Shown here: piece after piece, positions 5,136 through 33,491 of the stretch
Position numbering within the stretch: position 1 is the stretch's first letter
Layout of the letters: the number at the start of each line of letters is the position of its first letter
Assembly: GCF_023653455.1 (NCBI RefSeq)
Contig: NZ_JAKEDR010000010.1
Coordinates: 1-36,193, forward strand
DNA length: 36,193 bases
From: Paraclostridium ghonii
GTDB taxonomy: Bacteria > Bacillota > Clostridia > Peptostreptococcales > Peptostreptococcaceae
Direction: 5' to 3'
The notes under the pieces: model-generated
The model's database searches: none
Told to the model about the DNA's origin: nothing
The model's input: the letters and a program-made list of their open reading frames with translations, nothing else
Made by a program: the position numbers and the translations under genes

Positions 5136-6182
5136 ATGAAAAATAAAAAACTTATATTTTATATAGCAATTTTAGTAATTTTAGCTATATTTTCATCGTT
5201 TATTTTCAAAAAAAAAATAAATACATATTCTAAAACTATGTACTACCTAGGTACTGTTAATGAGGTTACATTGTATACTAAATCTAACGAAAAAAAAGCT
5301 AACGAAATATTATCTAATTGTGAAAGTATAGTAAAGGATATAGATAATAAAATGAACCCATCTACATTATCTAGTGATATCTATAAGATAAATGAAAATG
5401 CTGGTAAATCCTATACTAAAGTATCTCAAGATACATTTAACGTTATAAAAACAGCTCTTCACTTTTCAGATTTATCAAATGGTCACTTTGATATTTCAGT
5501 AGGTTCATTAGTTCAACTATGGAATATTGGAAATGAAAAAGCAAGAGTACCTGATCAAACTGAAATAGATTCAGTTTTATCTACAATAAATTATAAAGAT
5601 ATAATTTTAGATGAAAAGAATACTAGCATAATGTTAAAAAATAAGGGAACAAAGATAGACTTAGGGGGTATAGCTAAAGGATATGCAGCTGATAAAGTTG
5701 TAAAATACTTAGAAGATCAAAAATTCGAAGGTGCTATAGTAAATTTAGGGGGAAACATATACACACTTGGAACAAAAGATGGTAAAAACAAATTCAATAT
5801 AGGAGTTCAAGATCCAACTAAACCTAGAGGAAATGCTATAGGAAGCATAAATACAACAAACAACTCAGTAGTTACTTCAGGAATTTATGAAAGATATATA
5901 GAAAAAGACGGTAAAATTTTTCATCATATATTAAGCCCTAAAACCGGTTATCCTGTTGAAAATGAACTTAGTAGTGTAACTATACTTGCAAATAATTCAA
6001 TGAATTGCGATGCCTTATCTACAACAGCTTTTTCACTTGGAACTAAAGAAGGTCTTAAATTAATAGAATCCTTACCAAATACAGAAGCAATTTTTATAAC
6101 AAAGGATAAAGAAATATATTTAACACCTGGAATTAAAAATTCATTCCATCTTAAAGACTCCTCCTTCACCATCAAAAACTAA
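5136..6182 (+). CDS. apbE: FAD:protein FMN transferase
   Basis: The 348-aa protein opens with one membrane helix (about 6-24) and continues as an ApbE domain. Visible signatures are KMNPSTLSSDI, HFDISVGSLVQLW, the DLGGIAKGYAADKV segment, GGNIYTLG, VVTSGIYERY, and HHILSPKTGYPV followed by NCDALSTTAFSLG, which forms the Mg2+/FAD site. ApbE cleaves FAD and attaches FMN to threonine or serine in target proteins such as RnfG/RnfD or other FMN-binding domain proteins. The anchor places the enzyme on the outer face of the membrane. No obvious target gene is in this window. The ribosome-binding site AAAGGGG precedes the ATG. Confidence 0.93.
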   Translation: MKNKKLIFYIAILVILAIFSSFIFKKKINTYSKTMYYLGTVNEVTLYTKSNEKKANEILSNCESIVKDIDNKMNPSTLSSDIYKINENAGKSYTKVSQDTFNVIKTALHFSDLSNGHFDISVGSLVQLWNIGNEKARVPDQTEIDSVLSTINYKDIILDEKNTSIMLKNKGTKIDLGGIAKGYAADKVVKYLEDQKFEGAIVNLGGNIYTLGTKDGKNKFNIGVQDPTKPRGNAIGSINTTNNSVVTSGIYERYIEKDGKIFHHILSPKTGYPVENELSSVTILANNSMNCDALSTTAFSLGTKEGLKLIESLPNTEAIFITKDKEIYLTPGIKNSFHLKDSSFTIKN

Positions 6183-6310
6183 AAAAAGTAAGTATTGATT
6201 AAAAGTTAGATATATGGTTGCTTCCGAAACACTTAAAGACCTCTCTTTTTAGGTCTTTGTGTGAAGGAAGTAACCATATATCTAACAAACTCATCAATAC
6301 TTACTTTTTT
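6182..6310 (+). repeat. long hairpin with conserved core (hairpin A), between convergent apbE and selB
   Basis: The outer stem is a perfect 18-bp repeat (6182-6199 with 6293-6310) whose ends are A and T tracts. Then come an internal loop TAAAA / AAACTC, a second stem of 15 bp (6205-6219 with 6272-6286), CTTCC/GGAAG, a symmetric GAA/GAA loop (6226-6228, 6263-6265), ACAC/GTGT, an unpaired TT (6233-6234), and a tip stem AAAGACCT/AGGTCTTT. The blocks AAACACTT (6227-6234) and GTGTGAAGGAA (6259-6269) recur exactly in hairpins B and C. The position suits a two-way terminator, but the conserved core needs another explanation. Confidence 0.8.
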
Positions 6311-8193
6311 TAAAATAATACTCTTTTATTTTCGATTCTCTTTGTTACCTTATTTCTATCAAAGTCTTCAAGAATTATCATACAATTTTTTCTACTTGAG
6401 TTGACTAAATCTCTATAGTCTCCTAGAGTTATTTCTTTATGCTCTTCTAAATACCTTAGAAGTATTTCTTTAGCCTCATTATATACCTTAGAAGACATTA
6501 TATAACTATCCTCAAGTCTTACAACAGTATTTCCTATTAAAGACTCCAATACTTCTTCGTATTCTTTTTTATTCTCAGTTATATCTTCAATATTATAAAT
6601 ATTGTTAAGCCCAGCATTTTTTAATATTTTTTCTATATCATTTTTTATTTTTGTTTGTTTTTCATTAAATACAACATTAAATTTCTTTAAAGAAACTAAG
6701 TTTCCATCAACCTTTATAATCTCATCGTCTATAAATAAATCTAATAAAACATCAAAATCTCTTGTTTTAAATTTACTTTCAACTTTAGATCTTACTTCTT
6801 CTTTTAACATACCCTCTCTTAATCTAAATTTCTTATGATATGCTTGTAACTCACTTTCTGCTTTTTCTTTCAGTGTATTGTACTGATTTTTATGCATGTA
6901 CATATTATTTATGCATATAGCTTTACCGTGACTAACAAGCTTTTCTAATGCTTTTTTAATATTTTCTTCACTCTCTCCACTATAACTCATAATTTCTTTT
7001 ATATTTGGATAGTTTCTAGAGTTATTTTTTAAGTAAGCTTCTAATATGTCTGAAAGCTCTCCTTTTTCTTTTATCTTAAGGGCCTCTATAACATTAGTGT
7101 CAAACCTCTTGTGTTTTCTAGGATTAGTATCTATAACAATACCTCCACCTATAGTTTCCATAGGAGAATATCTTCTTACAACAAATTTATCTCCTTTTTT
7201 GGCAACTATACTTTCTTCAAGCCTAAGCTGAACCAGCCCACTTTCTCCCGGATTTATTTCTTCTATTTCTAATGGTACTGCTCTACAAAGTATTTCTCTA
7301 GTACCATGATAAAGTCTTAATCTATCCCAGTGTTTAAGCCCAATAGCTGTATGCTTAACAATACTTAATTTAACGTCTAACATCATAGCTTCTTCTAGTG
7401 AATGTGATGAAGCTAGTACATCTCCTCTATTGATTTCTTCAACTTTTACATTAGATATATTTATAGCTGTTCTTTGTCCGGCATAAGCAGTTTCAACACT
7501 TTCTCCATGAACTTGTATACTTCTTATCTTTGTTTTAAGTTCCTTTGGATATATAACTAAATCATCATCTATACTTATTTTTCCTTCTATTAAAGTTCCC
7601 GTTACAACTGTTCCAAATCCTTTTATAGAAAATACTCTGTCTATGTTAAGTCTTGCTGGCGCTTCTAGATTTTTATCTTCTATTTCATCCGTCATTTTAT
7701 CAATTTTATTTATAAGCTCATCTAATCCTTTTTTAGATATAGAATCAACCTCTATTATTTCTGCATCTTCTAAGAATGTTCCCATAACTTTTTCTTTTAT
7801 ATCTTCTTTTACTAATTCTCTAAAGTCTTCATCCACAGTATCACTTTTAGTTAAAACAATCATACCTTTTTTTATATTTAAAAATGTTAAAATGTCCATA
7901 TGTTCTACAGTTTGAGGCATAACCCCTTCATCTGCTGCAACAACTAATAAAACCATATCAAGACCTGATGCACCAGCTAACATATTTTTTATAAATTTTT
8001 CATGCCCTGGGACATCTACAATACCAGCTCTTTTATTACTTGGCAAATCAAAGTAGGTAAATCCTAAATTTATAGATATACCTCTTTTCTTTTCTTCAGC
8101 TAGTGTATCTGTTTCCCTTCCTGTAAGTGCTTTTATAAGAGTTGTTTTACCATGGTCTATATGTCCAGCTGTTCCTATTATTACGTTTTTCAT
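6310..8193 (-). CDS. selB: selenocysteine-specific elongation factor SelB
   Basis: This 627-aa GTPase replaces EF-Tu for Sec-tRNA. The GTPase domain shows AGHIDHGKT (9-17), [17 protein letters not shown] and the TKSD base-recognition motif; two beta-barrel domains follow, and the C-terminal third is the set of winged-helix repeats that bind the SECIS hairpin in mRNA (for instance [15 protein letters not shown] and the end [20 protein letters not shown]). Length and domain order match bacterial SelB. Its ribosome-binding site AGGAGG overlaps the end of selA, whose stop is two bases upstream of the ATG, so the two are translationally linked. The stop lies on the edge of hairpin A. Confidence 0.97.
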
Positions 8194-8195
8194 GT

Positions 8196-9605
8196 TTAAC
8201 CTCCTATTAAAGCTTTTTCTAACTCTTTTTTTACAACTTTAAATTCATCTTTAAATATAGTTCTCATATCTAACACATATTTATCATCATATACTCTAGC
8301 TATGATATGTGCATCGCTTAATCTAAGTTTTTTCTCTAGTGTTGAAACATTTATGTTTTTAGGAGTTATAGCTATAACCTTAGAGTCTATAGTTTCTAAA
8401 GGCATAGATCCCCCTCCAACCTGAGATAATCCATTTTCAATGTTTATATCTGCATATTTATCTAAATATTTTATTTCTTCATATAAATTGTTGGCTTTTT
8501 CTTCTAGTTCTTCTATATTATAAGTTAACATTTTTAATGTTGGAATTTCTTTTCTCGCTTTTTCTTCATCTAAGTACATTCTTAAAGTAGCTTCCAATGA
8601 ACATATAGTAAGCTTATCTACTCTTAACGCTCTTGTAAGCTGATTTTTTTTCATTTTTTCAATATATTCTTTTTTCCCAACTATAATACCAGCTTGAGGA
8701 CCTCCCAACATTTTATCTCCACTAAACGTAACTATATCAGCACCTTTTCTAATTGAATCTAATACTGTTGGCTCATAGCTTAATCCATATTTAGATATAT
8801 CTATAAAAACTCCACTACCTAAATCTTCAATAACTGGTATATCATGTTTCTTACCTAATTCGCATAATTCATCAACTTCTATACTTTGTGTAAATCCAAG
8901 TATTCTATAGTTGCTAGTATGAACTTTCATAAGTACTTTAGTATTTTCGCTTATAGCTTCTTCATAATCTTTTAGATGTGTCTTATTAGTAGATCCTACC
9001 TCAACTAAATCAGCTCCACTTAATGCCATTATGCTAGGTATTCTAAAAGATCCTCCAACTTCTACTAGTTCACCTCTAGATACTATAGCTTCTCCACCCT
9101 TTGCCATAGTACTTAGAACTAATAGTACAGCTGCAGCATTATTGTTTACAACCAATACATCTTCAGCTCCAGTTAACCTTTTTATAGTCTCCGTTAGATG
9201 TGTGTATCTTGAACCCCTTTGTCCTTTATCTATGTCGTACTCTAAATTTGAGTATCTAGATGCCGCTTCCCAAAGCTCATCTTTTATACTTTCACTAAGT
9301 AGAGATCTACCTAGATTTGTGTGAAGTACAGTTCCAGTGGCATTTATCACTTTCTTTAATGATAGTGAATATTTTAAATTACACTTATTTATCGTATTTT
9401 TTACTATTTCATCTATATTTAATTTAAATTTTTCAAAATCTATTTCTTTTAAATCTATTATTTCTTTTCTTTTTTCTTCTATAGATTCTCTTATTGCTTC
9501 AAGTAAAATATTTCTTGGGTATTCATTTAATGCATTTATTATCATTTCTTGATTTAGCATTTCATCTACTGAAGGCAATTGAGCAAATAATTCTCTTTTA
9601 TTCAT
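8196..9605 (-). CDS. selA: L-seryl-tRNA(Sec) selenium transferase SelA
   Basis: The 469-aa PLP enzyme converts Ser-tRNA(Sec) to Sec-tRNA(Sec) using selenophosphate from SelD. It has the usual N-terminal tRNA-binding helices ([17 protein letters not shown]), the [15 protein letters not shown] segment (87-100), and the PLP lysine in [13 protein letters not shown] (Lys298). The full family length is present. It follows selD by 24 bases with its own GGGGAGAGG ribosome-binding site and precedes selB by two bases, giving the order selD-selA-selB. Confidence 0.97.
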
Positions 9606-9629
9606 TAAATTTCCTCTCCCCTTAAGTCA

Positions 9630-10676
9630 TTACTTTACTGTTATATAGTTTTCTTTTTTCTCTACAACAGTTCCTATTATTTTAGCTTCTATAGACCCAT
9701 TTTTCTTCATATCTTCTACTAGTTTATCTGCTAGATCACTATTTACAGAAATTAGCAGACCTCCTGATGTTTGTGGATCATACAGTATATCTTCAATCGC
9801 TTCTTCTATATTTTCTAATTTAACATCATTTGATATATATTGTTTGTTTCTATACATACCAGCTGGTATTATTCCCATTTTAGCCATATCAATAGCTCCA
9901 TTTAGTATAGGTATTTCATTAACATTAAGTTCTATACTAACTTCTGATGCTTTTGCCATTTCTAGTGCATGTCCTAAAAGTCCAAATCCTGTTATATCTG
10001 TGACTGAGTTTACCTTTATATTATCAAAGCTCATAGCTGCATATTTATTTAAATGAACCATAGTTTCAACTACAATTTTACAAGTTTCTTCATCCACTAA
10101 ACCTTCTTTCATAGCAGTGTTTAATATTCCTACTCCTATAGGCTTAGTTATAATCAATTTATCCCCTACTTCTGCAGTTGCATTAGATAAAACTTTATCT
10201 GGATGAACGATTCCTGATACTGACAATCCATACTTAGGTTCTTTATCATCAACAGTGTGCCCTCCTACTAATAAGGCTCCACTTTCTTTTACTTTATCCA
10301 TTCCACCTTTTAATATTTCTGCTAATACATTCATATCATGACACGATGGGAAACATACTATGTTCATGGCAACCAAAGGCTTTCCGCCCATGGCGTAAAC
10401 ATCTGATAGTGAATTAGATGCTGCTATTTGTCCAAATATGTACGGATCATCTATCATTGGAGTAAAGAAATCTAGTGTTTGAATTAAAGCTGTATCATCA
10501 TTTAATTTATAAACAGCGGCATCATCTGAAGTTTCAAGTCCAACTAATAAATTTTCTTTTTTATCTGCTGTATTTTTAGGCAATTGAGCTAATACCGATG
10601 CCAGTACCTCTGGCCCTATTTTAGCAGCTCATCCTCCTGAAGTTGTCATATCTGTAAGTCTTTTCATCATTTCCAT
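9630..10676 (-). CDS. selD: selenide, water dikinase SelD (selenoprotein, UGA = Sec at codon 16)
   Basis: The gene starts at ATG 10676, which has AGGAG upstream, and reads [15 protein letters not shown], then UGA (10631-10629), then [18 protein letters not shown] and on without interruption to the stop at 9630, 348 aa in all. In SelD the catalytic loop is GGC/U-[AG]-x-K, so the UGA falls exactly at the catalytic Sec/Cys and the following Lys is the second catalytic residue. A frame that stops at this UGA can only begin at TTG 10583 and would lack the active site. A hairpin right after the UGA fits a bacterial SECIS. SelD makes selenophosphate from selenide and ATP. Later motifs include [18 protein letters not shown] and [18 protein letters not shown]. 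It heads selD-selA-selB. Confidence 0.96.
10586..10631 (-). promoter_or_regulatory. bacterial SECIS-type hairpin in selD
   Basis: Starting at the UGA, the minus strand has outer complementary parts GAGCT (10630-10626 region) and AGCTC (10590-10586), and an apical stem GCCAG (10614-10610) / CTGGC (10604-10600) closing a five-base loop AGGTA. The apical stem begins 14 bases after the UGA. A short stem with G in its loop close behind the UGA is what SelB recognises in bacterial mRNAs. The exact pairing of the lower part is uncertain. Confidence 0.75.
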
Positions 10677-10731
10677 AATTATGTCTCCTTTCTTTAAAGC
10701 ATTACATAACTAATAATATCATAATTAGCAT

Positions 10732-11439
10732 TTATTGAACACAGATATAGTCCTTCAAATCATTAAATTTATTTTCACCAATACCTTTTACATTTTTTAT
10801 TTCATCTATTGATTTAAACTCTTTATTTTCTTCTCTGTAATCTAATATTTTTTGAGCAGTAACTTCCCCGATTCCAGGTAATGAATCCAATTCCTCCATA
10901 GATGCACTATTTATATTAATCTTATTTTTTTCATTGCCTTCACTGCTAGTGTCTTCATTTTTATTCTCAGTTTCTACATCTAATTCATTAATCATTATTT
11001 CTTCACCTACTTTAGGTATTATGTAATGACCTTCGTCTTTTACTTTCATAGCCAGATTAATTCTATTTGTATCCGCTTCTTCTGTAAGCCCATTACAAAG
11101 TTTTACGCCTTCCATTAACCTATCATTACTTTTTAATTCCACAACTCCAGGTGAATTTACAGCCCCACTTATGTAAATACTAATCTTTTTACTTACATTC
11201 TCACTATTTTTAATAGTTTTTACATCTTCCATATTGTTAACTTTAGAAAAAGTCTCTTTTTTAGAGTCAGTTTGTTGTAAGTTATTATTATTATTATTTT
11301 CTGATTTATATTCTTCGCCTTCAACTTCGCTTACAACATAAGAATTATCTTTTTCGAAAAATTTACTATTTTTGATGAAAAAAACTGAACTTATGGTAAT
11401 AATTACTATTACAATAATAAAATTCTTTTTCAACTTCAT
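10732..11439 (-). CDS. comEA: ComEA family DNA-binding protein
   Basis: The 235-aa protein has an N-terminal membrane anchor (about 7-23), a low-complexity linker, an SLBB domain (about 87-146, ISIYISGAVNSPGVVEL) and a C-terminal double helix-hairpin-helix (about 172-235, ININSASMEELDSLPGIG then IKNVKGIGENKF). This is the normal Gram-positive ComEA plan; the protein binds double-stranded DNA outside the membrane for uptake. ComEC and ComFA, its usual partners, are not in this window, although a lipoprotein with a ComEC-type nuclease-like domain lies at 1660-2487. The ATG has GGAGTG upstream. It ends 55 bp before selD, so read-through into the selenium operon is possible. Confidence 0.92.
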   Translation of the reverse strand: MKLKKNFIIVIVIITISSVFFIKNSKFFEKDNSYVVSEVEGEEYKSENNNNNNLQQTDSKKETFSKVNNMEDVKTIKNSENVSKKISIYISGAVNSPGVVELKSNDRLMEGVKLCNGLTEEADTNRINLAMKVKDEGHYIIPKVGEEIMINELDVETENKNEDTSSEGNEKNKININSASMEELDSLPGIGEVTAQKILDYREENKEFKSIDEIKNVKGIGENKFNDLKDYICVQ

Positions 11440-11457
11440 TTTATCACTCCTTCAAAT

Positions 11458-11485
11458 TTGATTATTGACATAAATATGTTATACT
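11458..11485 (+). promoter_or_regulatory. promoter of the D,D-carboxypeptidase gene
   Basis: TTGATT (11458-11463) and TATACT (11480-11485) are separated by 16 bases, about 30 bp upstream of the ATG at 11517, in the short gap divergent from comEA. An alternative -35, TTGACA at 11465-11470, has no -10 at normal spacing. Confidence 0.55.
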
Positions 11486-11516
11486 AAAATATAAGTTTAT
11501 AATCGGAGGACAAAAA

Positions 11517-12881
11517 ATGTTTAAAAAAATATCAATACTATTATCTTTCATAATAACTTTTGTTAATTTATTCGCATTTGGTACTATTTCATTTGCGCAA
11601 ACACCACAACCTAATATATCTGCTGAATATGCAGTTTTAATGGATTATACAAGTGGTAAAGTTTTGTATGAAAAAAATTCTAATGCAAAATTATACCCTG
11701 CTTCTACAACTAAGATGTGGACTGCATACCTTACTTTAAAATATGTTAAAAATCTAGATGAGGTTGTAACAGTGGGAAATATAGGAAAAATAGATGGTAC
11801 AAGTATGCATTTAGTTCCAGGAGAGCAAGTTACTGTCAGACAGCTATTAGAAGGTTTACTTTTAGTTTCCGGAAACGATGCAGCAGTTGTTTTAGCACAA
11901 CATGTTAGTGGATCAATTCCAGATTTTGTAGATTTAATGAATGACGAAGCTAAAAAGGTAGGAGCTATAAATACACATTTTAATAATCCTAATGGACTTC
12001 CTGACTCTGATCATTATACAACTGCTTATGATATGTCTCTAATGGCTAGAGAGGCAATGAATAATGATGAATTTAGAAATATCGTAAATAAAAAGACATT
12101 AAAAGTACCACCTACAAACATTTCCCCAGAAAGAACTTTCGTAAATACAAACAAATTCTTAACAGGGACTACTAATATACCTTATAATGGCACGAATACA
12201 GATATCAAGTACGACATAGTAGATGGTATAAAAACTGGATTTACAGACGATGCCGGTAAATGTTTACTTTCTAGTGCTAAAAAAAATGATATGAGATTAA
12301 TTTGTACTGTATTTAAAACTGACGGAGAGCCTAATTTATATACAGATAGTAGAACTCTTTTAGATTATGGTTTTAATAACTTTAATTCTAAAAAAGTAAT
12401 AGATAAAAATGATTTTGAAGGTTCTAAGTCTATATGGTATGCAAAAGGAAGAAAATTAGAATACGCTCCTAAGTATAGTTATTACACAGTAATTAATACA
12501 GGTGATAGTGCTCCTAAATTTGAAACAAAAACAAAATTAAATACTATAAAACTCCCAATAAAAAAAGGGGATACTGTAGGTACCTTAGAGATTTATCAAG
12601 ATAAAGAAAAAAATCCTGTTGCGAATGTTCCTATAGTAGCTCAAAATGATGTGGTGAATATATTCTCATTATTATTGAACAATTCAATAGCAAAAAATAT
12701 GCAATCAGTGCTTATCATTGGAGCTTTATTAATTATTACTTTTGTAATATTGGTTTTAATAATAAAAAAGGTAAGAAACAATAAAATAAAAAAGTCTATA
12801 TATGATAAAAATAAATCTATATATTCAAACAAAAGAAATGATATTTATACAAGTAATAAAAGACGTAGAAGAAGACATTAA
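11517..12881 (+). CDS. dacF: D-alanyl-D-alanine carboxypeptidase (serine-type, S11)
   Basis: The 454-aa low-molecular-weight penicillin-binding protein has a signal peptide with probable cleavage after SFA (about residue 27). The active-site motifs are in order: SxxK at STTK (63-66), SxN at SGN (118-120), and KTG (239-241) in DGIKTGFTDDAGKC. A C-terminal PBP5-like domain follows, then a membrane helix (about 397-418) and a very basic tail ending RRRRRH. It trims the terminal D-Ala of peptidoglycan stem peptides outside the membrane. The transmembrane C-terminus, rather than an amphipathic helix, is common in Clostridia. Several paralogues (DacA, DacB, DacF) share this layout, so the symbol is tentative. 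GGAGG lies upstream of the ATG. Confidence 0.9.
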   Translation: MFKKISILLSFIITFVNLFAFGTISFAQTPQPNISAEYAVLMDYTSGKVLYEKNSNAKLYPASTTKMWTAYLTLKYVKNLDEVVTVGNIGKIDGTSMHLVPGEQVTVRQLLEGLLLVSGNDAAVVLAQHVSGSIPDFVDLMNDEAKKVGAINTHFNNPNGLPDSDHYTTAYDMSLMAREAMNNDEFRNIVNKKTLKVPPTNISPERTFVNTNKFLTGTTNIPYNGTNTDIKYDIVDGIKTGFTDDAGKCLLSSAKKNDMRLICTVFKTDGEPNLYTDSRTLLDYGFNNFNSKKVIDKNDFEGSKSIWYAKGRKLEYAPKYSYYTVINTGDSAPKFETKTKLNTIKLPIKKGDTVGTLEIYQDKEKNPVANVPIVAQNDVVNIFSLLLNNSIAKNMQSVLIIGALLIITFVILVLIIKKVRNNKIKKSIYDKNKSIYSNKRNDIYTSNKRRRRRH

Positions 12882-12906
12882 AAAAAGAGGCAATCGCCTC
12901 TTTTTT
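12881..12906. terminator. two-way terminator between dacF and sdaAA
   Basis: Hairpin AAAAAAGAGGC-aatc-GCCTCTTTTTT fills the 26-bp gap between converging genes and has A and T tracts suited to both directions. In contrast to hairpins A, D and E, this is a minimal terminator. Confidence 0.9.
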
Positions 12907-12907
12907 A

Positions 12908-13786: not shown

Positions 13787-13809
13787 ATTCTGTCACCCTT
13801 TCTCACTAA

Positions 13810-14484: not shown

Positions 14485-14561
14485 TAATAATACCTCTTTT
14501 CATTAAATTGTCTTTTTCTTTTGTTTTTTTGTAAATCATTTCCAATAGCTGCTTAATTCAT

Positions 14562-14595
14562 AAAATGACCATCCTAAAGAGGTATGGCCATTTTA
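14562..14595 (-). terminator. probable ridA terminator
   Basis: Arms AAAATGACCA and TGGCCATTTT (one mismatch each side) form a hairpin just past the ridA stop. The T-run on the minus strand is short (TTTT), so read-through into sdaAB is likely. Confidence 0.45.
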
Positions 14596-14605
14596 AAGTC
14601 TATTA

Positions 14606-14986: not shown

Positions 14987-15086
14987 AATCAATCTCTCCT
15001 TTTCTATTGTAGATGTTATTTTTATATTATACTTTTTTCAGTAATATTATACTACTAAACCGTATATATTGTATACAAAATGTAGT

Positions 15087-15126: not shown

Positions 15127-15151
15127 CATTATATACCCATTATATCATAAA

Positions 15152-16633: not shown

Positions 16634-16635
16634 TA

Positions 16636-19085: not shown

Positions 19086-19184
19086 AGGAGTTGCTCGTTG
19101 TTAGATTAGTTGTTTCCTTCACACAAAGTCCTACGGACTTTAAGTGTTTAGTCAACAACTAATCTAACAACTTCGCTTTTCTCC
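19086..19184 (-). repeat. long hairpin with conserved core (hairpin B), in the leuS leader
   Basis: On the minus strand the order is CTCC-partner GGAG outer ends, lower internal loop GCGAA (19176-19172) / GAGCAA (19096-19091), a perfect 18-bp stem (19154-19171 with 19097-19114), an asymmetric loop, ACAC/GTGT, unpaired TT, and a tip AAAGTCC-gta-GGACTTT. Core blocks AAACACTT (19149-19142) and GTGTGAAGGAA (19124-19114) are identical to those in hairpins A and C, while the main stem differs. It ends 30 bp before the leuS start codon. Confidence 0.8.
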
Positions 19185-19241
19185 CAATTCTCATAAATAT
19201 TATTTAAACTTTATATATTTATAATAAAAAATTCGCTTCGC

Positions 19242-19299
19242 TTGAGCGACTACGTCGGCGAACCACTTCATGTCGCCAACAACTTCGTCTGTTGCTCAA
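19242..19299 (-). other. GC-rich imperfect hairpin in the leuS leader
   Basis: TTGAGCGAC (19242-19250) and GTTGCTCAA (19291-19299) pair with one mismatch, and an inner GGCGA/TCGCC (19257-19261, 19073-type partner at 19273-19277) closes the loop. This is much richer in G and C than its surroundings. A T-run follows on the minus strand after a GCGAAGCG stretch, so weak termination is possible. Confidence 0.5.
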
Positions 19300-19391
19300 A
19301 AACCTTTTTTATGCTCAGAACATAGTATGTTTATATAACTAAGCTTCATAAGTTACCACAAATTTTTAATAAGTGTAATTTCCTTAAGCAT

Positions 19392-19600
19392 AAAAAATCC
19401 CCGTCACTAAACAAATTAATGTTTAGGGACGAGGATATTACTCGCGGTACCACCCTAATTAGTTATTTATAAAAATAACTCTCTCGTACTAGTCTTTATA
19501 CCAACTACGGTTAAATAGGTTGTTCTAGCAAGTTCAAATCAATCTAATACTAGTTCACACCATCCACTAGCTCTCTGAAATCTAAATTTAATTTTACTAC
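19392..19600 (-). promoter_or_regulatory. T-box leader (leucine) with terminator, controls leuS
   Basis: Read on the minus strand, the leader holds the stem I distal motif GGTGTGAAC, a specifier region GAA-CTT-GC with Leu codon CTT at 19532-19530, the T-box sequence AGGGTGGTACCGCG (19456-19443), and a terminator (GTCCCTAAACA / TGTTTAGTGAC, then a T-run at 19397-19392). Uncharged tRNA-Leu binds the specifier and the T-box, preventing termination. The next gene downstream, leuS, agrees with the specifier. Unusually, more than 330 nt lie between this terminator and the leuS start; they hold a GC-rich hairpin and hairpin B. Confidence 0.9.
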
Positions 19601-20728: not shown

Positions 20729-20730
20729 AA

Positions 20731-22337: not shown

Positions 22338-22341
22338 TGTA

Positions 22342-25399: not shown

Positions 25400-25449
25400 A
25401 AATATTACTCCTTCTCTTTTTTCTTTACTGTTTACACTTTAATAATAAG

Positions 25450-25487
25450 GTGTAAGTCTTACATAATACTTTCATAATGACTTACAC
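25450..25487 (-). promoter_or_regulatory. inverted repeat upstream of the ABC genes, likely response-regulator operator
   Basis: GTGTAAGTC (25450-25458) and GACTTACAC (25479-25487) are perfect 9-bp arms around a 20-bp centre, and a further CTTACA/TGTAAG pair sits at the right edge. One arm overlaps the last codons and stop of the kinase gene. Such repeats before an ABC gene pair next to a two-component system are usually the binding site of its response regulator. Confidence 0.5.
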
Positions 25488-26723: not shown

Positions 26724-27412
26724 TTTTTCATACACCTCTTTTCAAAAGTGTATCCAATTCCCCTAATATTTTTTATAAACTTAGGATTAGATGAATCTTC
26801 TTCAACTTTTTGTCTAAGTCTTCTTATATTTACAGCTATTGTATTTTCATCTACATAATTACCATCTATATCCCACATAGCTTCTATTAATTGTTCTTTA
26901 GTAACTATTTGACATGAGTTTTCCATTAAATATGTAAGTAATTTACCTTCATTCTTACTAAGCATGATTTCATTATCTTCTTTTTTAAGTTTACTATCCA
27001 CATAGTTATAACTTAAACCTTCACAACAAATACAGTTTTCATTTATAGAATTTCCAATTCTTTTCATAAGTGCATTAACTTTAGATATTAAAACAATTAA
27101 GCTAAATGGTTTTGTTATATAGTCATCTGCACCTACTTCATATCCTGTAACTATATCAACTTCTGCGTCTAACGCAGTTAACATTATTATGTGAACATCA
27201 CTAATACTTCTTACATGCTCACAAAAATCAAATCCATCGCCATCAGGAAGCCCAATATCAGATATAATTAAATCAATTTTATTATTTAAAAATAACTCCT
27301 TAGCTTCTTTTATGCTAAAAGCTTTAAATACTTCATAACCTTCTCTTTTTAATTTAAAGCTTATTCCCCTATTTAGTGATTTATCATCCTCTAATAATAA
27401 AATTACTCCCAT
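26720..27412 (-). CDS. OmpR/PhoB family response regulator
   Basis: The 230-aa protein has a receiver domain with the acidic pair LLLEDD, phosphoacceptor Asp52 in LIISDIGLPDGDG, and Lys101 in DDYITKPFS. A winged-helix DNA-binding domain follows (about 130-230, with EAMWDIDGNYVDENTIAVNIRRLRQKVE). It is the first gene of the regulator-kinase pair. The next unit downstream, the ABC genes, is the expected target. Confidence 0.95.
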   Translation of the reverse strand: MGVILLLEDDKSLNRGISFKLKREGYEVFKAFSIKEAKELFLNNKIDLIISDIGLPDGDGFDFCEHVRSISDVHIIMLTALDAEVDIVTGYEVGADDYITKPFSLIVLISKVNALMKRIGNSINENCICCEGLSYNYVDSKLKKEDNEIMLSKNEGKLLTYLMENSCQIVTKEQLIEAMWDIDGNYVDENTIAVNIRRLRQKVEEDSSNPKFIKNIRGIGYTFEKRCMKK

Positions 27413-27504
27413 AAAATTCTCCTTTATTTTACATTATATGTATATATTACTATGAAGTTTTTTCTTTATAAAGATTTTACGTAAAAGAAAAAATATAATC
27501 GCAT

Positions 27505-27547
27505 TAAAAAATGGCTGTAGTACTAAAAAATAGTACAACAGCCATTT
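27505..27547. terminator. terminator after the flavoprotein gene
   Basis: AAAATGGCTGT-a-GTACT and AGTAC-a-ACAGCCATTTT form a 16-bp hairpin with A and T tracts, directly after the stop at 27551 on the minus strand. It separates this gene from the two-component operon. Confidence 0.8.
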
Positions 27548-27550
27548 TAA

Positions 27551-28885
27551 TTACTTACTAACATTACCAGCTACATTAAGTATATCCCATGTTCTTGCAA
27601 ACGGTGGTGCATAGCATAAATCTAACATCCCTAATTGGTCTGTAGTTAACTTTCCAAATATGCATGCAGCTATTACATTACATCTTTGAACTGCATCTTT
27701 ATATCCTGCAACTTGACCTCCTAATATAACTTTAGTTTCAGCATCATATATAAGTTTTACATACATTTTATTTCTTCCAGGATAATAGTTAGTTTGATTG
27801 AAATCTGATATAAATTTAGCTTTAACTTTCATACCTAGTTTTTGCGCTTGTATTTCTGTTAACCCTGTACAGGCAGCTTCCATATCCATGATTTTTATAC
27901 AACTTGATCCTAATGACCCTTGGAAACTGTTATTATATCCAGCTAAGTTTTCTCCAACTATTCTACCTAATTTATTAGCTCCTGTTGCAAGGGGTACATA
28001 TGAGTCTTTACCTGTTACTATATTTTGTATAGTTGCACAATCCCCTGCAGCATATATATCCTCCACTGAAGTTTTTCCAAATTCATCAACAATTATTGCT
28101 CCATTTAAAAGCATATTTATTTCAGTATCTTTTAAAAACGAAGTATTGGGTCTAACTCCAGTTGCTATTATAACTAAATCAACATCATATTCACCTTTAT
28201 TTGTTATAACTTTTTTAACTGTTTTATCTCCAGCTAATTCACTAACTATTTCTTCTAATCTTAAATCAACATTATGTTTTTTAATTTCATCCTCTAATAT
28301 ATCAGTTATTTCTTTATCAAATACTTGAGGTAAAATCCTATCTTCTAGTTGAAATACAACTACATCTTTTCCTAGTTTTTTTACAGCTTCGACACCTTCA
28401 AGTCCTATAAATCCTGCTCCTATTATAGCAACTTTTTTTACTTCATCTTTATTTATCAGTTCTTTAACTCTTATGCCATCTTCTAAGTTTTTTAATGTTG
28501 ATACATTTTCAAGTTTAACATTTTTTATAGGAGGTATTATACTGCTAGCACCTGTAGCTATCATTAATTTATCATATGAATCTTCAAATATTTTTCCGCT
28601 TTTTACATCTTTTAGATTTAATTTTTTAGATTTAGTATCAACCGAAATAACTTCATGAAATATGTTTAAGTCTATTCCACTTTCTATAAATTTCTCTGGA
28701 GCTCTTGCTATCATATTTTGTGGGTCATCAAAAAATCCACCAACAAAATACGGAAGACCACATGCTCCAAATGATACTACATCTGTTTTTTCATAGACTA
28801 CTACATCATATTGTGGCTTCATTCTTTTTAATTTGGCCGCAGCACTCATACCTGCTGCCACCCCACCAATAATAACAACTCTCAT
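27551..28885 (-). CDS. CoA-disulfide reductase / NADH oxidase-like flavoprotein
   Basis: The 444-aa protein begins with an FAD-binding GGVAAGMSAAAKL (7-19), has the redox cysteine Cys42 in SFGACGLPYF, a central NAD(P)H-binding IIGAGFIGLEGVEA, and the second FAD motif DIYAAGDCATI. The end, CYAPPFARTWDILN, is the C-terminal dimerisation segment of this group. A single active-site cysteine after the GxGxxG is the mark of CoA-disulfide reductases and NADH oxidases or peroxidases; the exact substrate (CoA disulfide, persulfide, oxygen or peroxide) cannot be settled by eye. No rhodanese domain is attached. It is probably transcribed alone, with AAGGAG before the ATG. A role in thiol or oxygen stress is likely for an anaerobe. 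Confidence 0.85.
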   Translation of the reverse strand: MRVVIIGGVAAGMSAAAKLKRMKPQYDVVVYEKTDVVSFGACGLPYFVGGFFDDPQNMIARAPEKFIESGIDLNIFHEVISVDTKSKKLNLKDVKSGKIFEDSYDKLMIATGASSIIPPIKNVKLENVSTLKNLEDGIRVKELINKDEVKKVAIIGAGFIGLEGVEAVKKLGKDVVVFQLEDRILPQVFDKEITDILEDEIKKHNVDLRLEEIVSELAGDKTVKKVITNKGEYDVDLVIIATGVRPNTSFLKDTEINMLLNGAIIVDEFGKTSVEDIYAAGDCATIQNIVTGKDSYVPLATGANKLGRIVGENLAGYNNSFQGSLGSSCIKIMDMEAACTGLTEIQAQKLGMKVKAKFISDFNQTNYYPGRNKMYVKLIYDAETKVILGGQVAGYKDAVQRCNVIAACIFGKLTTDQLGMLDLCYAPPFARTWDILNVAGNVSK

Positions 28886-29020
28886 AATTTTTCTCCTTAA
28901 AACAATGTATTTTAAAATAAATTTATTTATTTTTATATATTATTAAATAATTATAGTATACCACTTACCCATTATTTATAATACATTAACATATTTTAAT
29001 TAGTATATTTTTATTAATCA

Positions 29021-29051
29021 AAAAAATACCTAATAAAATTAGGTATTTTTT
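29021..29051 (-). terminator. yhbY terminator
   Basis: AAAAAATACCTAAT and ATTAGGTATTTTTT form a hairpin just after the yhbY stop, with a T-run in the proper direction. It ends the rplU-to-yhbY run of genes. Confidence 0.8.
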
Positions 29052-29053
29052 AA

Positions 29054-29422
29054 TTATCTCATAGATTTTTTAGTAGGTCTTCCTTTTTTACTCACTGTGT
29101 TGTCAACTTTTTTAGCTTTTGCTTGCTCGTGACCTGGGAAGATTATTTGTGGATTTTCTTCATTTCTTTTATATATAGTGAATTTAAATCCTATAGCTTG
29201 TACAAATTCAGCTCTTAAAGCTTCACATATAGCATTTGCTGTTTCTTTTGCATCTAATCCTGCATTGTCTAATATAGAAATTTTAACTATTTCTCTAGCT
29301 TTTAACATATCTTCTAATTGATCTAAAAAACTTTCTGTAACACCTTCTTTACCTATTTGAGTTATAGGCTTTAAAGTGTTAGCTACAGATCTTAGATACG
29401 CTCTTTGCTTACCTTTTAACAT
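29054..29422 (-). CDS. yhbY: ribosome assembly RNA-binding protein YhbY (CRM domain)
   Basis: The first ~97 residues are a CRM/YhbY domain: LKGKQRAYLRSVANTLKPI, QIGKEGVTESFLDQLEDML, and the GxxF-type end FKFTIYKRNEE. It binds the large-subunit rRNA during assembly. The remaining ~25 residues (KAKKVDNTVSKKGRPTKKSMR) are a basic tail beyond the usual ~97-aa length. It lies 28 bp after obg and is probably cotranscribed. Confidence 0.93.
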   Translation of the reverse strand: MLKGKQRAYLRSVANTLKPITQIGKEGVTESFLDQLEDMLKAREIVKISILDNAGLDAKETANAICEALRAEFVQAIGFKFTIYKRNEENPQIIFPGHEQAKAKKVDNTVSKKGRPTKKSMR

Positions 29423-29450
29423 GTGTCCACCTCTTTACGTATTGTTCATT

Positions 29451-30728
29451 TTAATTGTAGAATTCGAATTCTATATCATATATCTTAGCAGTATCTCCAT
29501 CTTCTATGCCCATTTCTCTTAGCTTATCAAATACACCTTGAGATTCCATAGATTTTTGGAAGAACTGTACAGATTCCATATCTTCAAAGTTAACAGAGTA
29601 CATTATTCTTCTTAAAGCTTTACCAGTAACAACATATACTCCATCTTCTATTTCAACTTCTAGTCCATCTTCAGTTTCTTCAACTAATTCTGGTCTATAC
29701 ATTTCTTCTTCAGTTACTAACTCAACATCTTCAACTTCGTTTAATAATTGTGCAACGTAAGCTATAACATCATCAATTCCTTGTCTTGTTGCTGCAGACA
29801 TCTTGAATACTTTATATCCTCTTGACTCTAATTCATTCTTAAAGTTTTCAAAGTTACTTTCATCTTCCATTATGTCTATTTTGTTAGCAACAACAACTTG
29901 AGGTCTTGTCGATAATTTTTCATTATATAATTTTAACTCATCGTTTATTTTATCAAAATCTTCTAAAGCATCTCTGCCTTCTATTCCTGATATATCAACT
30001 ATATGGATTAATACCTTAGTTCTTTCAACATGTCTTAAGAAATCATGCCCTAATCCTATACCTTCTGCAGCACCTTCTATAAGTCCTGGTATATCAGCAA
30101 GTACAAAACTTTCTCCAAACTTAGTTTGTACAACTCCTAAATTTGGTGTTAACGTTGTGAAATGATAGTTAGCTATCTTTGGTTTAGCTTTAGTTACTAC
30201 TGATAAAAATGTTGATTTACCTACATTTGGGAATCCTAATAGACCAACATCAGCTATCATTTTCAACTCTAATATTATCCACTTTTCTTCTCCATCAGTT
30301 CCTGATTTAGCAAATGCAGGAGCCTGTCTTATTGCATTGGCAAAGTGCTGGTTTCCTCTTCCACCTCTTCCACCTTTTGCAACTACTGCTTCATCGCCTT
30401 CTTCTTTTAAGTCAGCTATAATAAGACCTGTCGCTTCATCTCTTATTATTGTACCTGGAGGAACTAATAAAACTAAGTTTTCACCGTTTTTACCAGCTTG
30501 TCTTTTCTTAGTTCCATCTCCACCAGCTGGCGCAGAGTATTTAGTTTGATATTTAAAGTCCATTAATGTTCTTAATCCTGAATCAACCTTAAATATTATA
30601 CTTGCTCCACGTCCACCGTCTCCTCCGTCTGGTCCGCCTGCTGGAACGTATTTTTCTTTTCTAAAAGAAACTGATCCGTTACCACCATTTCCAGCTTTAA
30701 CAAATATTCTAGCCTTATCTATAAACAT
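29451..30728 (-). CDS. obg: GTPase Obg/CgtA
   Basis: The 425-aa GTPase has the glycine-rich Obg fold at the N-terminus (AGNGGNGSVSFRKEKYVPAGG...), the G domain from about 160 (GFPNVGKST, DIPGLIEGA, NKID), and a C-terminal OCT domain (VVTGKALRRIMYSVN). It acts in late 50S assembly and is essential in most bacteria. Its place after rpmA follows the classic rplU-prp-rpmA-obg order. A 130-bp gap with the rpmA terminator precedes it, so a separate promoter is likely, though I cannot point to a clear one. Confidence 0.97.
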   Translation of the reverse strand: MFIDKARIFVKAGNGGNGSVSFRKEKYVPAGGPDGGDGGRGASIIFKVDSGLRTLMDFKYQTKYSAPAGGDGTKKRQAGKNGENLVLLVPPGTIIRDEATGLIIADLKEEGDEAVVAKGGRGGRGNQHFANAIRQAPAFAKSGTDGEEKWIILELKMIADVGLLGFPNVGKSTFLSVVTKAKPKIANYHFTTLTPNLGVVQTKFGESFVLADIPGLIEGAAEGIGLGHDFLRHVERTKVLIHIVDISGIEGRDALEDFDKINDELKLYNEKLSTRPQVVVANKIDIMEDESNFENFKNELESRGYKVFKMSAATRQGIDDVIAYVAQLLNEVEDVELVTEEEMYRPELVEETEDGLEVEIEDGVYVVTGKALRRIMYSVNFEDMESVQFFQKSMESQGVFDKLREMGIEDGDTAKIYDIEFEFYN

Positions 30729-30821
30729 ATTTATTCACCTTCTTTTTTAAAGCTTTTTTTATTTATATTTGCCACAATCTATAATATAAATTCCATCCGA
30801 GCTATATTAATTATTATAAGT

Positions 30822-30852
30822 AAAAAAGGAGTGTATGAACACTCCTTTTTTT
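30822..30852 (-). terminator. rpmA terminator
   Basis: AAAAAAGGAGTGT and ACACTCCTTTTTTT pair around a four-base loop, directly after the rpmA stop. Confidence 0.85.
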
Positions 30853-30858
30853 AGTATA

Positions 30859-31143
30859 TTACTCAGCAACTGGGTATACACTTACTTTTTTTCTTTTCTT
30901 GTCTTTTCTTTCGAATTTAACAGCACCGTCAACTAATGCGAATAAAGTGTCATCTCCACCTTTACCTACGTTAGTTCCTGGATGTACTTTAGTTCCTCTT
31001 TGTCTAACTATTATACTTCCAGCAGTTACAACTTGTCCATCGAATCTCTTAACACCTAATCTTTTAGATACAGAATCTCTACCGTTCTTAGAAGATCCTA
31101 CCCCTTTCTTAGATGCAAGTAATTGTAAGTTCATTTTTAACAT
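30859..31143 (-). CDS. rpmA: 50S ribosomal protein L27
   Basis: The 94-aa L27 begins [23 protein letters not shown]. In Firmicutes the first nine or so residues are a propeptide removed by the Prp protease, encoded by the preceding gene, so that the mature protein starts near SKKG and can reach the peptidyl-transferase centre. Here the residues before the presumed cut are LLA rather than the FFA or LFA known from Staphylococcus. The rest, [11 protein letters not shown] and [13 protein letters not shown], is standard. GGAGGTG lies upstream of the ATG. Confidence 0.97.
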
Positions 31144-31157
31144 TCTGGAGTCACCTC

Positions 31158-31475
31158 CTACTTTTTTAGAATTTTTATATTTTTTGGGTATTCCCTTTTA
31201 ATTTCATTAATGGCTAATTGAAAATGTTGTAGTAATAATTGAGCTTTGTCTAGATATTCATCTTTTACAATGCACTCAATGTGACCTTCTTGTCCTATTA
31301 CTTTTTCAAATTCAATTTTTTGCAATGTACTTAAAGAATTTATAACTGATAATGCATTGGATGTAACCGCCGCACATACGATATCAGAACCTAGTTCTGC
31401 ATAGTCAGCATGTCCCTTAAGACAAAAACCTTTAAGCATGAAATCATCATTTTGATAATATTTAATCTTTATCAT
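31158..31475 (-). CDS. prp: ribosomal-processing cysteine protease Prp
   Basis: The 105-aa protein has the Prp catalytic pair: His22 in [18 protein letters not shown] and Cys34 in the same segment. Prp (YsxB) cuts the N-terminal extension from L27. It sits between rplU and rpmA, as in all Firmicutes that have the L27 extension. The extension is present here, which agrees with its function. Translation likely depends on rplU, since only a weak ribosome-binding site is seen. Confidence 0.95.
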
Positions 31476-31486
31476 GGCTCTTACGA

Positions 31487-31798
31487 TTAAGCGTTTATTT
31501 TTTCAACTACTAACTTAGTGTAAGCTTGACGATGTCCGTTCTTTCTTCTGTAGTCTTTCTTAGCTTTATACTTGAAAACTATAACTTTCTTAGCTTTCCC
31601 TTGCTCTACAACTTTAGCAGTTACAGATGCACCATCAACAGTTGGAGCTCCAACTACTAAGTTTCCATCTTTAGAACAAGCTAATACTTCGTTTAAAGTA
31701 ACTACATCACCTTCGTTACCGTTTAACTTTTCTACGAAGATTACATCACCTTCAGCAACTTTATATTGCTTTCCTCCAGTTTTAACTATAGCGTACAT
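31487..31798 (-). CDS. rplU: 50S ribosomal protein L21
   Basis: Started at ATG 31798 ([18 protein letters not shown]), the protein is 103 aa, the usual length; the frame nine bases longer lacks room for the AGGAGG. The conserved C-terminus [24 protein letters not shown] is present. It binds 23S rRNA. It is first in rplU-prp-rpmA, with a strong promoter and a structured leader before it. Confidence 0.97.
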
Positions 31799-31886
31799 TA
31801 AATACACCTCCTCGGTCTCAAACTCGCCAATGCAAGGTACTCATTAAGAGATTTACAAACCTTTATTGAGCGGCACTACTTTATAA
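31799..31886 (-). promoter_or_regulatory. rplU (L21) leader RNA
   Basis: The ~88-nt leader between promoter and start has the hairpins CTC-ttaat-GAG and CTTGC-attg-GCGAG and a conserved-looking stretch ending GAGTTTGAGACCGAGGAGG, which overlaps the ribosome-binding site. It agrees with my memory of the L21 leader found in Firmicutes, thought to be an autoregulatory site. I could not test this against a covariance model. Confidence 0.6.
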
Positions 31887-31915
31887 ATAATACTATAATT
31901 TGTATAAACTGTCAA
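31887..31915 (-). promoter_or_regulatory. rplU promoter
   Basis: Minus-strand TTGACA (31910-31915) and TATTAT (31887-31892) are separated by 17 bases. The -35 directly adjoins the stop codon of rng. Confidence 0.8.
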
Positions 31916-33313
31916 CTAACTATTAAAAATAATATTCATTTTTTCATGTTGAATTTCAGCTTTTTTATCTATATTTATTATTACATTATATTTCTCACTT
32001 ATCTTATCTATTTTATCTTTATAAGATTCGTTGATTTCATCTACAACATAATTGTTTAACTCTATTTTTACTGTATTATACGAAGTATGTTCTTTTATTC
32101 TCATTACTTCTTTTTCTACTTCATCTAAAACTCTATTAGTTGACTTTATCCTCTCCCCACATTTACATACAAAGCATTCTTGAAGGTAGTAACTATCTAT
32201 AGAATCTTTTTCTCTTCTTCTAGCAATTTCAACTAATCCAAGCTTTGTCATTCCCATTACATTGGTTTTTCTTTTATCCTTATATATTTCTTCATTTAGA
32301 ACTTCTAGCAAACTATTTTTATATTCATTTTTTTGCATATCTATAAAGTCAATAATTATAATACCTGCCATATCTCTAATTCTTAGGAGCCTTGCAATTT
32401 CTACAGCTGCTTCTAAATTAGTTTTGTATACTGTTTCTTCTAAGTTAGAATTCCCAGTAAATTTGCCTGTATTTACGTCTATAACAGTTAAAGCTTCTGT
32501 TTTATCTATTATTAAATATCCACCACTTTTTAGCCATACTTTTCGATTTAAACATTTATCTATCTGACTTTGTACCGAATATAAATCAAATACATCTTTA
32601 TTATTTTCTAAAATCAGTTTGTCTTTATATTCTTTGTTTATATTTACTAATATACTTTTTAACTCTTCATATTTATGGTTATTATTTACAATAATTTTTG
32701 AAACACTGTCATTTACATTATCTTTTATATATTTTGAAGCAAAGTCTAAATCTTTATATAAAAGCTTAGGCCCAATTCCTAACCTAAACTCTTTTAATAT
32801 ATTTGTATACTTTTCTTTTAACTCTAATATATCACTTTCTATCTCTTCCTTAGAACATCCAACTGCTTCTGTTCTTATAATACCTGTAAAATCTTTATCT
32901 ATACTCTGTACTATCTTTTTTATTCTAAATCGCTCTTTTTCTGATGTAATTTTATTCGATATAGTAAGTCTATCGTTTGATGGGATATATACTAGATATC
33001 TTCCTGCAAAACTTATTTCCGTATTAAGTTTTGCGCCTTTGGTTCCTATAGCTTCTTTATTAATTTGAACTAAAATGTCTTGCCCACACTTAATATTTTC
33101 ATTGTTCTTCATACTTAAATATGCAAGTTTCTCAGTTCCAATATCTATAAAATAAGCTTCTATTCCTTTTAATGCTTTTTTTACAACCCCTCTATAAATA
33201 TTTGAAACAGTTTTACTTGAACTACTCTCTATAAAAAGTTCACTTAGCTTTCCATCTTCTAAAACAGCTACCTTTTGAGAATTAACCAAAGACTCTATAA
33301 CAATATTTTTCAA
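31916..33313 (-). CDS. rng: ribonuclease E/G family protein
   Basis: The 465-aa protein has an S1 domain near the start (about 38-115, SNIYRGVVKKALKGIEAYFIDIG), the RNase E/G core with the metal-binding aspartates in VIDVNTGKFTG and IIIDFIDM, and the zinc-link region with CFVCKCG near 385. It processes 5S/16S rRNA or mRNA with preference for 5'-monophosphate ends. The start codon is TTG at 33313, preceded by AGGAAGTGAG; there is no ATG in frame upstream before a stop. This length without a long C-terminal scaffold is RNase G-like. It follows the TIGR03960/TIGR03936 pair, the usual clostridial order. Confidence 0.93.
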   Translation of the reverse strand: MKNIVIESLVNSQKVAVLEDGKLSELFIESSSSKTVSNIYRGVVKKALKGIEAYFIDIGTEKLAYLSMKNNENIKCGQDILVQINKEAIGTKGAKLNTEISFAGRYLVYIPSNDRLTISNKITSEKERFRIKKIVQSIDKDFTGIIRTEAVGCSKEEIESDILELKEKYTNILKEFRLGIGPKLLYKDLDFASKYIKDNVNDSVSKIIVNNNHKYEELKSILVNINKEYKDKLILENNKDVFDLYSVQSQIDKCLNRKVWLKSGGYLIIDKTEALTVIDVNTGKFTGNSNLEETVYKTNLEAAVEIARLLRIRDMAGIIIIDFIDMQKNEYKNSLLEVLNEEIYKDKRKTNVMGMTKLGLVEIARRREKDSIDSYYLQECFVCKCGERIKSTNRVLDEVEKEVMRIKEHTSYNTVKIELNNYVVDEINESYKDKIDKISEKYNVIINIDKKAEIQHEKMNIIFNS

Positions 33314-33368
33314 AATCTCACTTCCTATCCTTTCCTTAATTCATCTTCATAGAATATCCATAATCTTT

Positions 33369-33491
33369 TATGATATAAATTTTAATACAATGCGAAGAGT
33401 GTTATATATGCATTGACGAAACACTTTACGTGCAAAGCACGTCGTGTGAAGGAAATACATATATAACACTCGAGCACCCTCTTATATCATA
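33369..33491 (+). repeat. long hairpin with conserved core (hairpin C), between TIGR03936 and rng
   Basis: Outer arms TATGATATAA (33369-33378) and TTATATCATA (33482-33491); lower internal loop with GCGAA (33392-33396) on the left and GAGCAC (33472-33477) on the right; a perfect 14-bp stem (33397-33410 with 33458-33471); core blocks AAACACTT (33419-33426) and GTGTGAAGGAA (33444-33454); tip ACGTGC-aaa-GCACGT. The core is the same as in hairpins A and B; the lower loop is the same as in B and E. It is not between convergent genes and has no strong T-run of its own. Confidence 0.8.

Follow-up and report, generated by a model that had tools for sequence, protein, structure and literature searches.

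A dispersed palindromic repeat family of Paraclostridium that keeps its structure rather than its stem sequence

Three hairpins in the window and their family

The window analysed here is a 36,193-nt stretch of Paraclostridium ghonii DNA (assembly GCF_023653455.1, contig NZ_JAKEDR010000010.1, positions 1 to 36,193), and it carries three intergenic hairpins, A, B and C, whose neighbours include selB, leuS and a TIGR03936 family gene (Table 1). The three hairpins are members of a real palindromic repeat family without an Rfam name, which is confined to Paraclostridium among the genomes searched and reaches about forty related hairpins per genome. A first-pass annotation, made from the letters of the sequence, had placed A, B and C, and all three were found exactly at those positions and on those strands (folding z against dinucleotide shuffles, in the same sense, of -17.0, -9.3 and -7.4 for A, B and C respectively). 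The blocks AAACACTT and GTGTGAAGGAA, which it had described as fixed, have the same letters in all three copies. The main stem lengths it gave (15, 18 and 14 bp) were correct for B only; the main stem has 18 positions in every copy, continuing through GCT in A and including one mismatch in C.

The genome that holds the window (3.53 Mb, 374 contigs; G000 hereafter) was analysed together with five relatives from the genus (G001 to G005). The exact core pattern AAACACTT-N5..34-GTGTGAAGGA occurs seven times in the whole of G000, where the reversed pattern occurs 0 times. A covariance model built from 7 copies gave 30 matches in G000, found copies in all six Paraclostridium genomes and matched 0 of 54 genomes outside the genus. 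The model built from 52 copies returned 140 rows in the genus, or 138 without two antisense doubles (row counts: 43 in G000, including one antisense double, 31 in G004, 29 in G001, 18 in G002, 15 in G005 and 4 in G003). The true numbers may be higher, as each search scored a subset of its initial candidates (150 of about 3,400-3,800 in each of the five large genomes, and 150 of 768 in G003). The proposal of a single family, with further copies to be sought by covariance model, was borne out by these counts.

An order-wide search of 297 genomes, run at reduced sensitivity with 14 candidates scored per listed genome, gave matches in the six genomes of the genus and in 0 of the other 291. The exact 23-base pattern, searched in one genome per species for 84,980 species (a set from which records close to G000 may have been excluded), matched six stretches, all from Paraclostridium benzoelyticum and [Eubacterium] tenue. 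Viral contigs held no exact pattern match and an origin from viruses was dropped. Skipping-rope and Drum, Rfam families of long imperfect hairpins, had been named as candidates; unlike these, A, B and C had no Rfam match at the gathering score or up to E 5. The family was not seen in literature on Paraclostridium and its older names combined with repeat, palindrome or noncoding-RNA terms, judged by titles and abstract openings in a search that most subscription journals lay outside.

From the outside inwards, the members consist of a variable outer helix, a base loop (commonly GCGAA/GAGC), an 18-bp helix, a purine-rich GA loop, ACAC/GTGT, a TT bulge and a tip. The model spans 77-93 nt in every row but one, and the exception (136 nt) holds an insert. 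Anatomy and context were counted in 115 of 139 rows (G000 34, G001 27, G004 27, G002 14 and G005 13, with G003 left out), 24 rows below 45 bits, among them five antisense doubles, having been dropped. The outer helix is present in part of the copies: in 26 of the 115, the flanks paired beyond the model more strongly than a threshold set at the 5th percentile for mismatched flanks, and in A the outer stem includes A and T runs. The base loop lies at the foot of the main stem in B, C and part of the family, and 24/115 copies start with exactly GCGAAG. The 5' arm has 18 letters in 77 copies, 19 in 32 and 17 in 6, while the 3' arm has 18 in 99.

The purine loop reads 5'-GA-N-GAA / 5'-GAA-N'-GA (exactly GACGAA/GAAGGA in 33/115 copies). 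The N-N' pair within it covaries (C-G 37, A-T 6, T-A 4 and other 5 in 52 copies), and the neighbouring purines are therefore likely to be joined in non-standard G-A pairs. The central pair alone is Watson-Crick in 61/115 copies; the outer three positions are closed by Watson-Crick pairs in 9/115, and such pairs stand in place of the outer part of the loop in A. The tips include 21 triloops (13 GNA and 6 AAA), of which 19 have a closing C-G pair; in DNA, the C-GNA-G triloop has exceptional stability. The remaining tip loops are longer, often with G or A first and A last, and there were 0 tetraloops among the 112 tips scored (3 tips were not scored). A shortened-core variant, AAC-GTT-AAAGCC..GGCTTT-A-GTGAAGG, is common in G005.

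Table 1. Hairpin copies, their parts and other features, in window coordinates.
Feature	Position	Strand	Remarks
Copy A	6182..6310	+	outer helix 6182-6199/6293-6310; main element 6200-6291; fold and model match, 88.6 bits
A, 18-bp helix	5' arm 6205..6222, 3' arm 6269-6286	+	
A, core	6223..6268	+	loop strand 6223-6228; ACAC 6229-6232; TT 6233-6234; tip 6235-6258; GTGT 6259-6262; GAAGGA 6263-6268
Copy B	19092..19176	-	model match, 93.1 bits; leader of leuS, between T-box and ribosome-binding site
B, 18-bp helix	5' arm 19154..19171, 3' arm 19097-19114	-	
B, core	19115..19153	-	GACTAA 19148-19153; ACAC 19144-19147; TT 19142-19143; tip with GTA triloop 19125-19141; GTGT 19121-19124; GAAGGA 19115-19120
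Copy C	33392..33476	+	model match, 82.9 bits; between two minus-strand genes, opposite to their message
C, 18-bp helix	5' arm 33397..33414, 3' arm 33454-33471	+	
C, core	33415..33453	+	GACGAA 33415-33420; ACAC 33421-33424; TT 33425-33426; tip with AAA triloop 33427-33443; GTGT 33444-33447; GAAGGA 33448-33453
selB	6310..8193	-	TIGR00475 above cut-off; 18 nt from gene end to last model base of A
TIGR03936 family gene	33522..34229	-	C lies 45 nt behind the gene end
24-nt palindrome	33497-33520		between C and the TIGR03936 family gene; a terminator by eye
tRNA-Sec gene	3721-3813		about 2.5 kb from selB
Ribosomal protein L21 leader match	31817-31872		weak (29.7 bits; gathering score 36); precedes small genes on the minus strand
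Second repeat	19202-19400		beside copy B; about 200 bp, two modules

The second repeat listed in Table 1 is more abundant than the hairpin. A query containing it gave at least 54 matches in G000 (40 candidates scored) and, among the matches listed, most fall on this repeat. It is not present at the leuS locus of the five relatives, and is likely a recent insertion. A stretch resembling it by eye lies within the tip of one G005 hairpin, as if inserted (L057 1501-1636), and a third repeated stretch, also by eye, adjoins two hairpin copies (L131 flanks, on G000 C316).

Change in the stems and spread of the family

In the 7-copy alignment, 21 of the 32 pairs showed two-sided change, a number reached by 0 of 500 shuffles, and the covariation score was 0.57, compared to 0.07-0.16 for slid structures. 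In the 52-copy alignment, which had been fitted to the structure, two-sided change was present in 30/32 pairs, paired cells amounted to 93.9% and the score was 0.754 (0.062-0.108 in slid structures). Stems that change and still pair around a conserved core, as the first-pass annotation had described them, are therefore real. Paired changes at the observed rate also fit template switching, and covariation by itself is consequently no proof of RNA function.

Orthologous copies were compared in 42 pairs (55 copies) from sites with a single copy and a gap no more than 25 nt from that expected, other sites being dropped; two of the pairs include a copy below 45 bits (L169 and L127), and the P values treat sites as independent. 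Between G001 and G004, 4-fold (neutral) sites differed by 9.9% (16,102 sites), while in the 16 usable ortholog pairs divergence was 20.7% in the arms, 7.1% in the core and 6.8% in the tip stem. The arm differences (of 36 positions) were 0, 0, 0, 1, 1, 1, 2, 2, 4, 10, 12, 12, 14, 17, 18 and 25, a scatter far above Poisson. Moreover, in 40 of the 288 stem pairs both bases had been replaced and a different Watson-Crick pair had resulted, compared to an independent neutral expectation of approximately 1% (about 3). Core and tip changed less than neutral sites in two of the three genome comparisons: 10.3% and 6.5% vs. 25% at 4-fold sites between G000 and G004 (9 pairs, p 5e-7 and 2e-7), and 12.8% and 4.4% vs. 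24.1% between G000 and G001 (10 pairs, p 5e-5 and 1e-9). The arms, by contrast, were at (24.5%) or above (33.9%) the neutral level in the comparisons of G000 with G004 and G001.

Template switching, where one arm serves as template for its partner, would fit the patterns of stem change. In one G004 copy (L127) a block had changed in one arm and the other arm was unchanged, indicating that not every change is compensated; the rewritten block has no other occurrence in the DNA examined. Gene conversion between paralogs was rejected as a source of new stems on this ground and because few arms are alike outside tandem copies and a G005 subfamily. With its many natural copies and close relatives, the family makes template switching and compensatory change countable at short evolutionary distance.

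One copy (L016) is present in G000 and absent at the same site in G001, G004, G002 and G005, which is a clean insertion and, as the alignment is read, one into the loop of a small ancestral palindrome. The left part of the insert contains 12 nt that repeat the ancestral right flank in inverted orientation, a match equalled by 10 of 200,000 random 40-mers. In G005, eight copies have 14-18 of 18 arm letters equal, three of them in unlike flanks and the others in partly shared flanks, which shows a recent amplification. The family therefore spreads, and where the first-pass annotation had wished to exclude non-autonomous mobile elements, the clean insertion and the amplification point the other way. 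A miniature inverted-repeat transposable element, with conserved terminal inverted repeats and a target duplication, does not fit: arms differ between most paralogs, and inspection by eye of L016, whose empty site is the only clean one, showed no target duplication.

Tandem hairpin pairs occur in G000. Two genomes (G002 and G005) lack copy A at its site, and three (G002, G003 and G005) lack copy B, either of which may reflect gain or loss; C is common to four genomes with much changed stems. Losses in G004 include a deletion between 5-bp repeats and the deletion of half of another copy; at a further G004 site, core and tip are gone and what is left is a short stem, perfectly paired, in which one change has been compensated.

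Hairpins in direct orientation flank a small gene in a cassette-like layout in G000 (L021 349-1590, gene of 307 aa) and G004 (L153 4086-5497, 315 aa), and the G001 counterpart (L118) has one side with a weak match only, on the other strand. The gene between the two G000 copies (L021 494-1417) was rejected as a transposase, as it had no NCBIfam match (Pfam was outside the search). In G002, two hairpins with identical 5' arms lie 1,048 bp apart (L174 10989-12123), suggesting a duplicated unit; an N run adjoins the first.

Position, strand and nature of the hairpin

Gene calls took the longest open frames, with a minimum of 100 aa (70 aa for the first 30 G000 copies), one copy lacked a called right-hand gene (n=114), and orthologs and tandem copies are counted more than once in the context counts. 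The right-hand gene, reading the motif 5' to 3', was on the opposite strand in 96/114 copies (26/30 in the first 30 G000 copies), and in 65 of these 96 its stop codon lay 5-25 nt from the element; 0 of 18 same-strand right-hand genes started at that distance. Left-hand genes on the opposite strand lay at a median distance of 153 nt, and 3 of 71 left-hand genes started 5-25 nt away. Motif-sense left-hand genes ended 5-25 nt away in 11/41 cases, so that the element has a stop codon close by on either side at some convergent sites. In 69/115 copies both adjacent genes are read from the other strand, 24 contexts were convergent and 16 sense. The structured strand is, consequently, the strand opposite to the message in most copies. 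B is an exception to the gene-end rule, being sense to leuS and behind its T-box. By GC skew, 20 of the 27 G001 copies are oriented against the leading strand; a replication-polarity motif was ruled out by three G001 loci (L108, L113 and L145) that follow gene orientation and break replication orientation.

A strict finder (n=114) placed gene-sense terminators behind the element in 27 copies, before it in 7 and overlapping it in 2, whereas for motif-sense terminators the counts were 29 before the element, 12 after it and 9 overlapping; part of the two sets of calls are likely the same two-way hairpins. An intrinsic terminator, with the stem followed directly by a T run, was rejected on the small overlap in either sense, in agreement with the first-pass view that this is not a plain terminator. 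A motif-sense promoter of the element's own was set aside, the strict pattern being present in 1/115 copies (weaker promoters were outside the scoring).

The motif strand was more stable than its complement in 98/115 copies with DNA energies and in 102/115 with RNA energies, an excess to which the model, built in motif sense, may add slightly. Main-stem mismatches comprised 67 G-T and 39 A-C in 2,051 cells (26 to 14 in copies of at least 70 bits). In the 42 ortholog pairs, changes from a Watson-Crick pair led to another Watson-Crick pair in 143 cases, to G-T in 47, to A-C in 21 and to other combinations in 30. A transcribed hairpin of the 3' untranslated region (UTR) would favour A-C, which is its G-U, and an excess of A-C was not observed. 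The 5' arms favour G and T, supplying the G of 80% of the G-C pairs and the T of 62% of the A-T pairs. The first-pass annotation had left open a structured RNA or a DNA hairpin read by a protein; the compensatory change it relied on is real, and a DNA hairpin seems to us likelier than a transcribed RNA, given the orientation opposite to the message, the near absence of strict promoters and the mild G-T preference.

We tentatively favour, at rather less than firm belief, a repeat like the repetitive extragenic palindromic (REP) elements, whose working form would be a single-stranded DNA hairpin opposite the message with a core probably bound by a protein. The helices may take any pairing sequence while the G-A-rich core is kept, and template switching during replication would both keep the stems paired and rewrite them. 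The folded DNA strand, rather than an RNA, would be what is recognised; a candidate protein would read the core, and recognition would help the repeat to spread and may also have some function at the ends of genes. As a whole, the first-pass interpretation stands as to one family, a fixed core, covariation, no Rfam identity and no terminator, and falls short on mobility, spread having been seen.

Several points weigh against a protein-read DNA hairpin. No protein partner was found, and recognition is what we infer. Copies without a recognisable core are missed by the model, which flatters conservation, and core and tip were not significantly below neutral between G001 and G004 (p 0.1 and 0.14). 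Where the core was below neutral (G000 vs. G001 and G004), such restraint would not be required of a repeat that is purely selfish. Copy B and its orthologs are located in a leader, in sense orientation, and not behind a gene. The ratio of G-T to A-C mismatches fits DNA, but also weak selection on RNA; the tRNA control gave 13 to 0, based on 2 tRNAs, and the G/T skew of the 5' arms is the skew described for RNA stems. Finally, the inverted flank copy is known from L016 alone and was spotted after looking, and a second insertion candidate (L141 in G005 vs. G002) had no inverted copy by eye.

The main rival, a possibility we consider unlikely but take seriously, is an RNA hairpin of the 3' UTR: the complement strand would be transcribed with the gene and act behind the stop on ribosome, decay or termination, as some REPs do. 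The 65 copies close behind stop codons agree with it, as do core and tip below neutral in G000 vs. G001 and G004, and gene-sense terminators, more often behind the element (27/114) than before it (7/114), place part of the copies likely within 3' UTRs that are transcribed. For REPs, moreover, ribosome stalling is reported when the element is no more than 15 nt from a stop codon (PMC12306157). However, in the complement the loops become pyrimidine mismatches, this strand folds less well than the motif strand and the wobble goes in the wrong direction.

Decidedly less probable is a structured RNA of the motif strand itself, which would be antisense to the end of the gene and arise either by read-through or from a promoter of the element. 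The G-A-rich loops and the mild G-T preference belong to this strand, and the 24 convergent and 16 sense contexts could transcribe it; against this, both neighbours read the other strand in 69/115 copies, motif-sense terminators precede the element in 29/114, and a strict promoter was found once. Mutation alone, with template switching keeping the arms equal and no functional part, is the most doubtful of these alternatives: it fits the dominance of two-sided paired changes and the G004 site that retained a compensated perfect stem without core and tip, but template switching should erase the internal loop too, which is closed at its outer positions in only 9/115 copies, with the central pair alone paired in 61/115, and core and tip diverge well below 4-fold sites between G000 and G004.

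Comparison with known systems

Multi-base compensatory changes together with a G-C/U-A arm skew in RNA stems have been explained by template switching (Monttinen and Loytynoja 2022, PMC8794818), and both features are present here. Their cases are RNA genes and microRNAs, whereas ours is a dispersed bacterial repeat, compared by pattern only. The family also cautions that DNA elements may show strong covariation, which need not signal a functional RNA.

The integron attC site lies behind its cassette gene. Like attC, the folded strand of the Paraclostridium hairpin is the one opposite the gene (96/114 copies) and the more stable one with DNA energies. Structure is likewise kept while stems vary, and the internal loop, bulge and variable tip recall the central spacer, extrahelical bases and terminal structure described for attC (PMC6393395). 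Unlike attC, the hairpins had RYYYAAC/GTTRRRY boxes in 0/115 copies (both strands searched, up to 30 nt from the ends), and no gene accompanied the gain or loss of A, B and L016. An integron integrase (NF011946) was above cut-off in 0/6 genomes, with sub-threshold matches in all six and equally in 14/14 control genomes. An integron was ruled out by the boxes and the integrase. It seems improbable, if conceivable, that the copies are attC-like sites without an integron, that is, bottom-strand DNA hairpins behind ordinary chromosomal genes with a G-A-rich core read by a putative recombinase. The same joint and equally improbable claim would add a two-loop core placed 18 bp above the second loop and stems that rewrite themselves by template switching.

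The REP elements of the GTAG and CGTC super-families are 20-40 bp long (PMC3733652), and are associated with transposases (RAYTs, REP-associated tyrosine transposases). A RAYT partner was rejected, as the RAYT-type Y1 transposase domain PF01797 was absent from G002, G003 and G005, three of the six genomes; G001 and G004 have one each and G000 two fragments, in a search that does not distinguish RAYTs from IS200/IS605 transposases. Unlike REPs, the Paraclostridium hairpin has 77-93 nt, an 18-bp helix, two internal loops and helices that are not conserved, and it lacks a constant GTAG tag: GTAG stands at the 5' base in 12/115 copies and CGTC in 0/115 (control windows 0 and 2), so that GTAG is above control, yet not a feature of the family. 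Like REPs, which are dispersed, partly close behind stop codons (PMC12306157) and found in grouped copies (PMC3733652), the hairpins are extragenic, grouped and, in 65 of the 96 opposite-oriented copies, 5-25 nt behind a stop. What is new is a palindromic repeat family in a Gram-positive genus that keeps structure rather than stem sequence. As a dispersed repeat it is ordinary; what sets it apart is a structured core whose surrounding stems are rewritten freely, together with its strand and its place.

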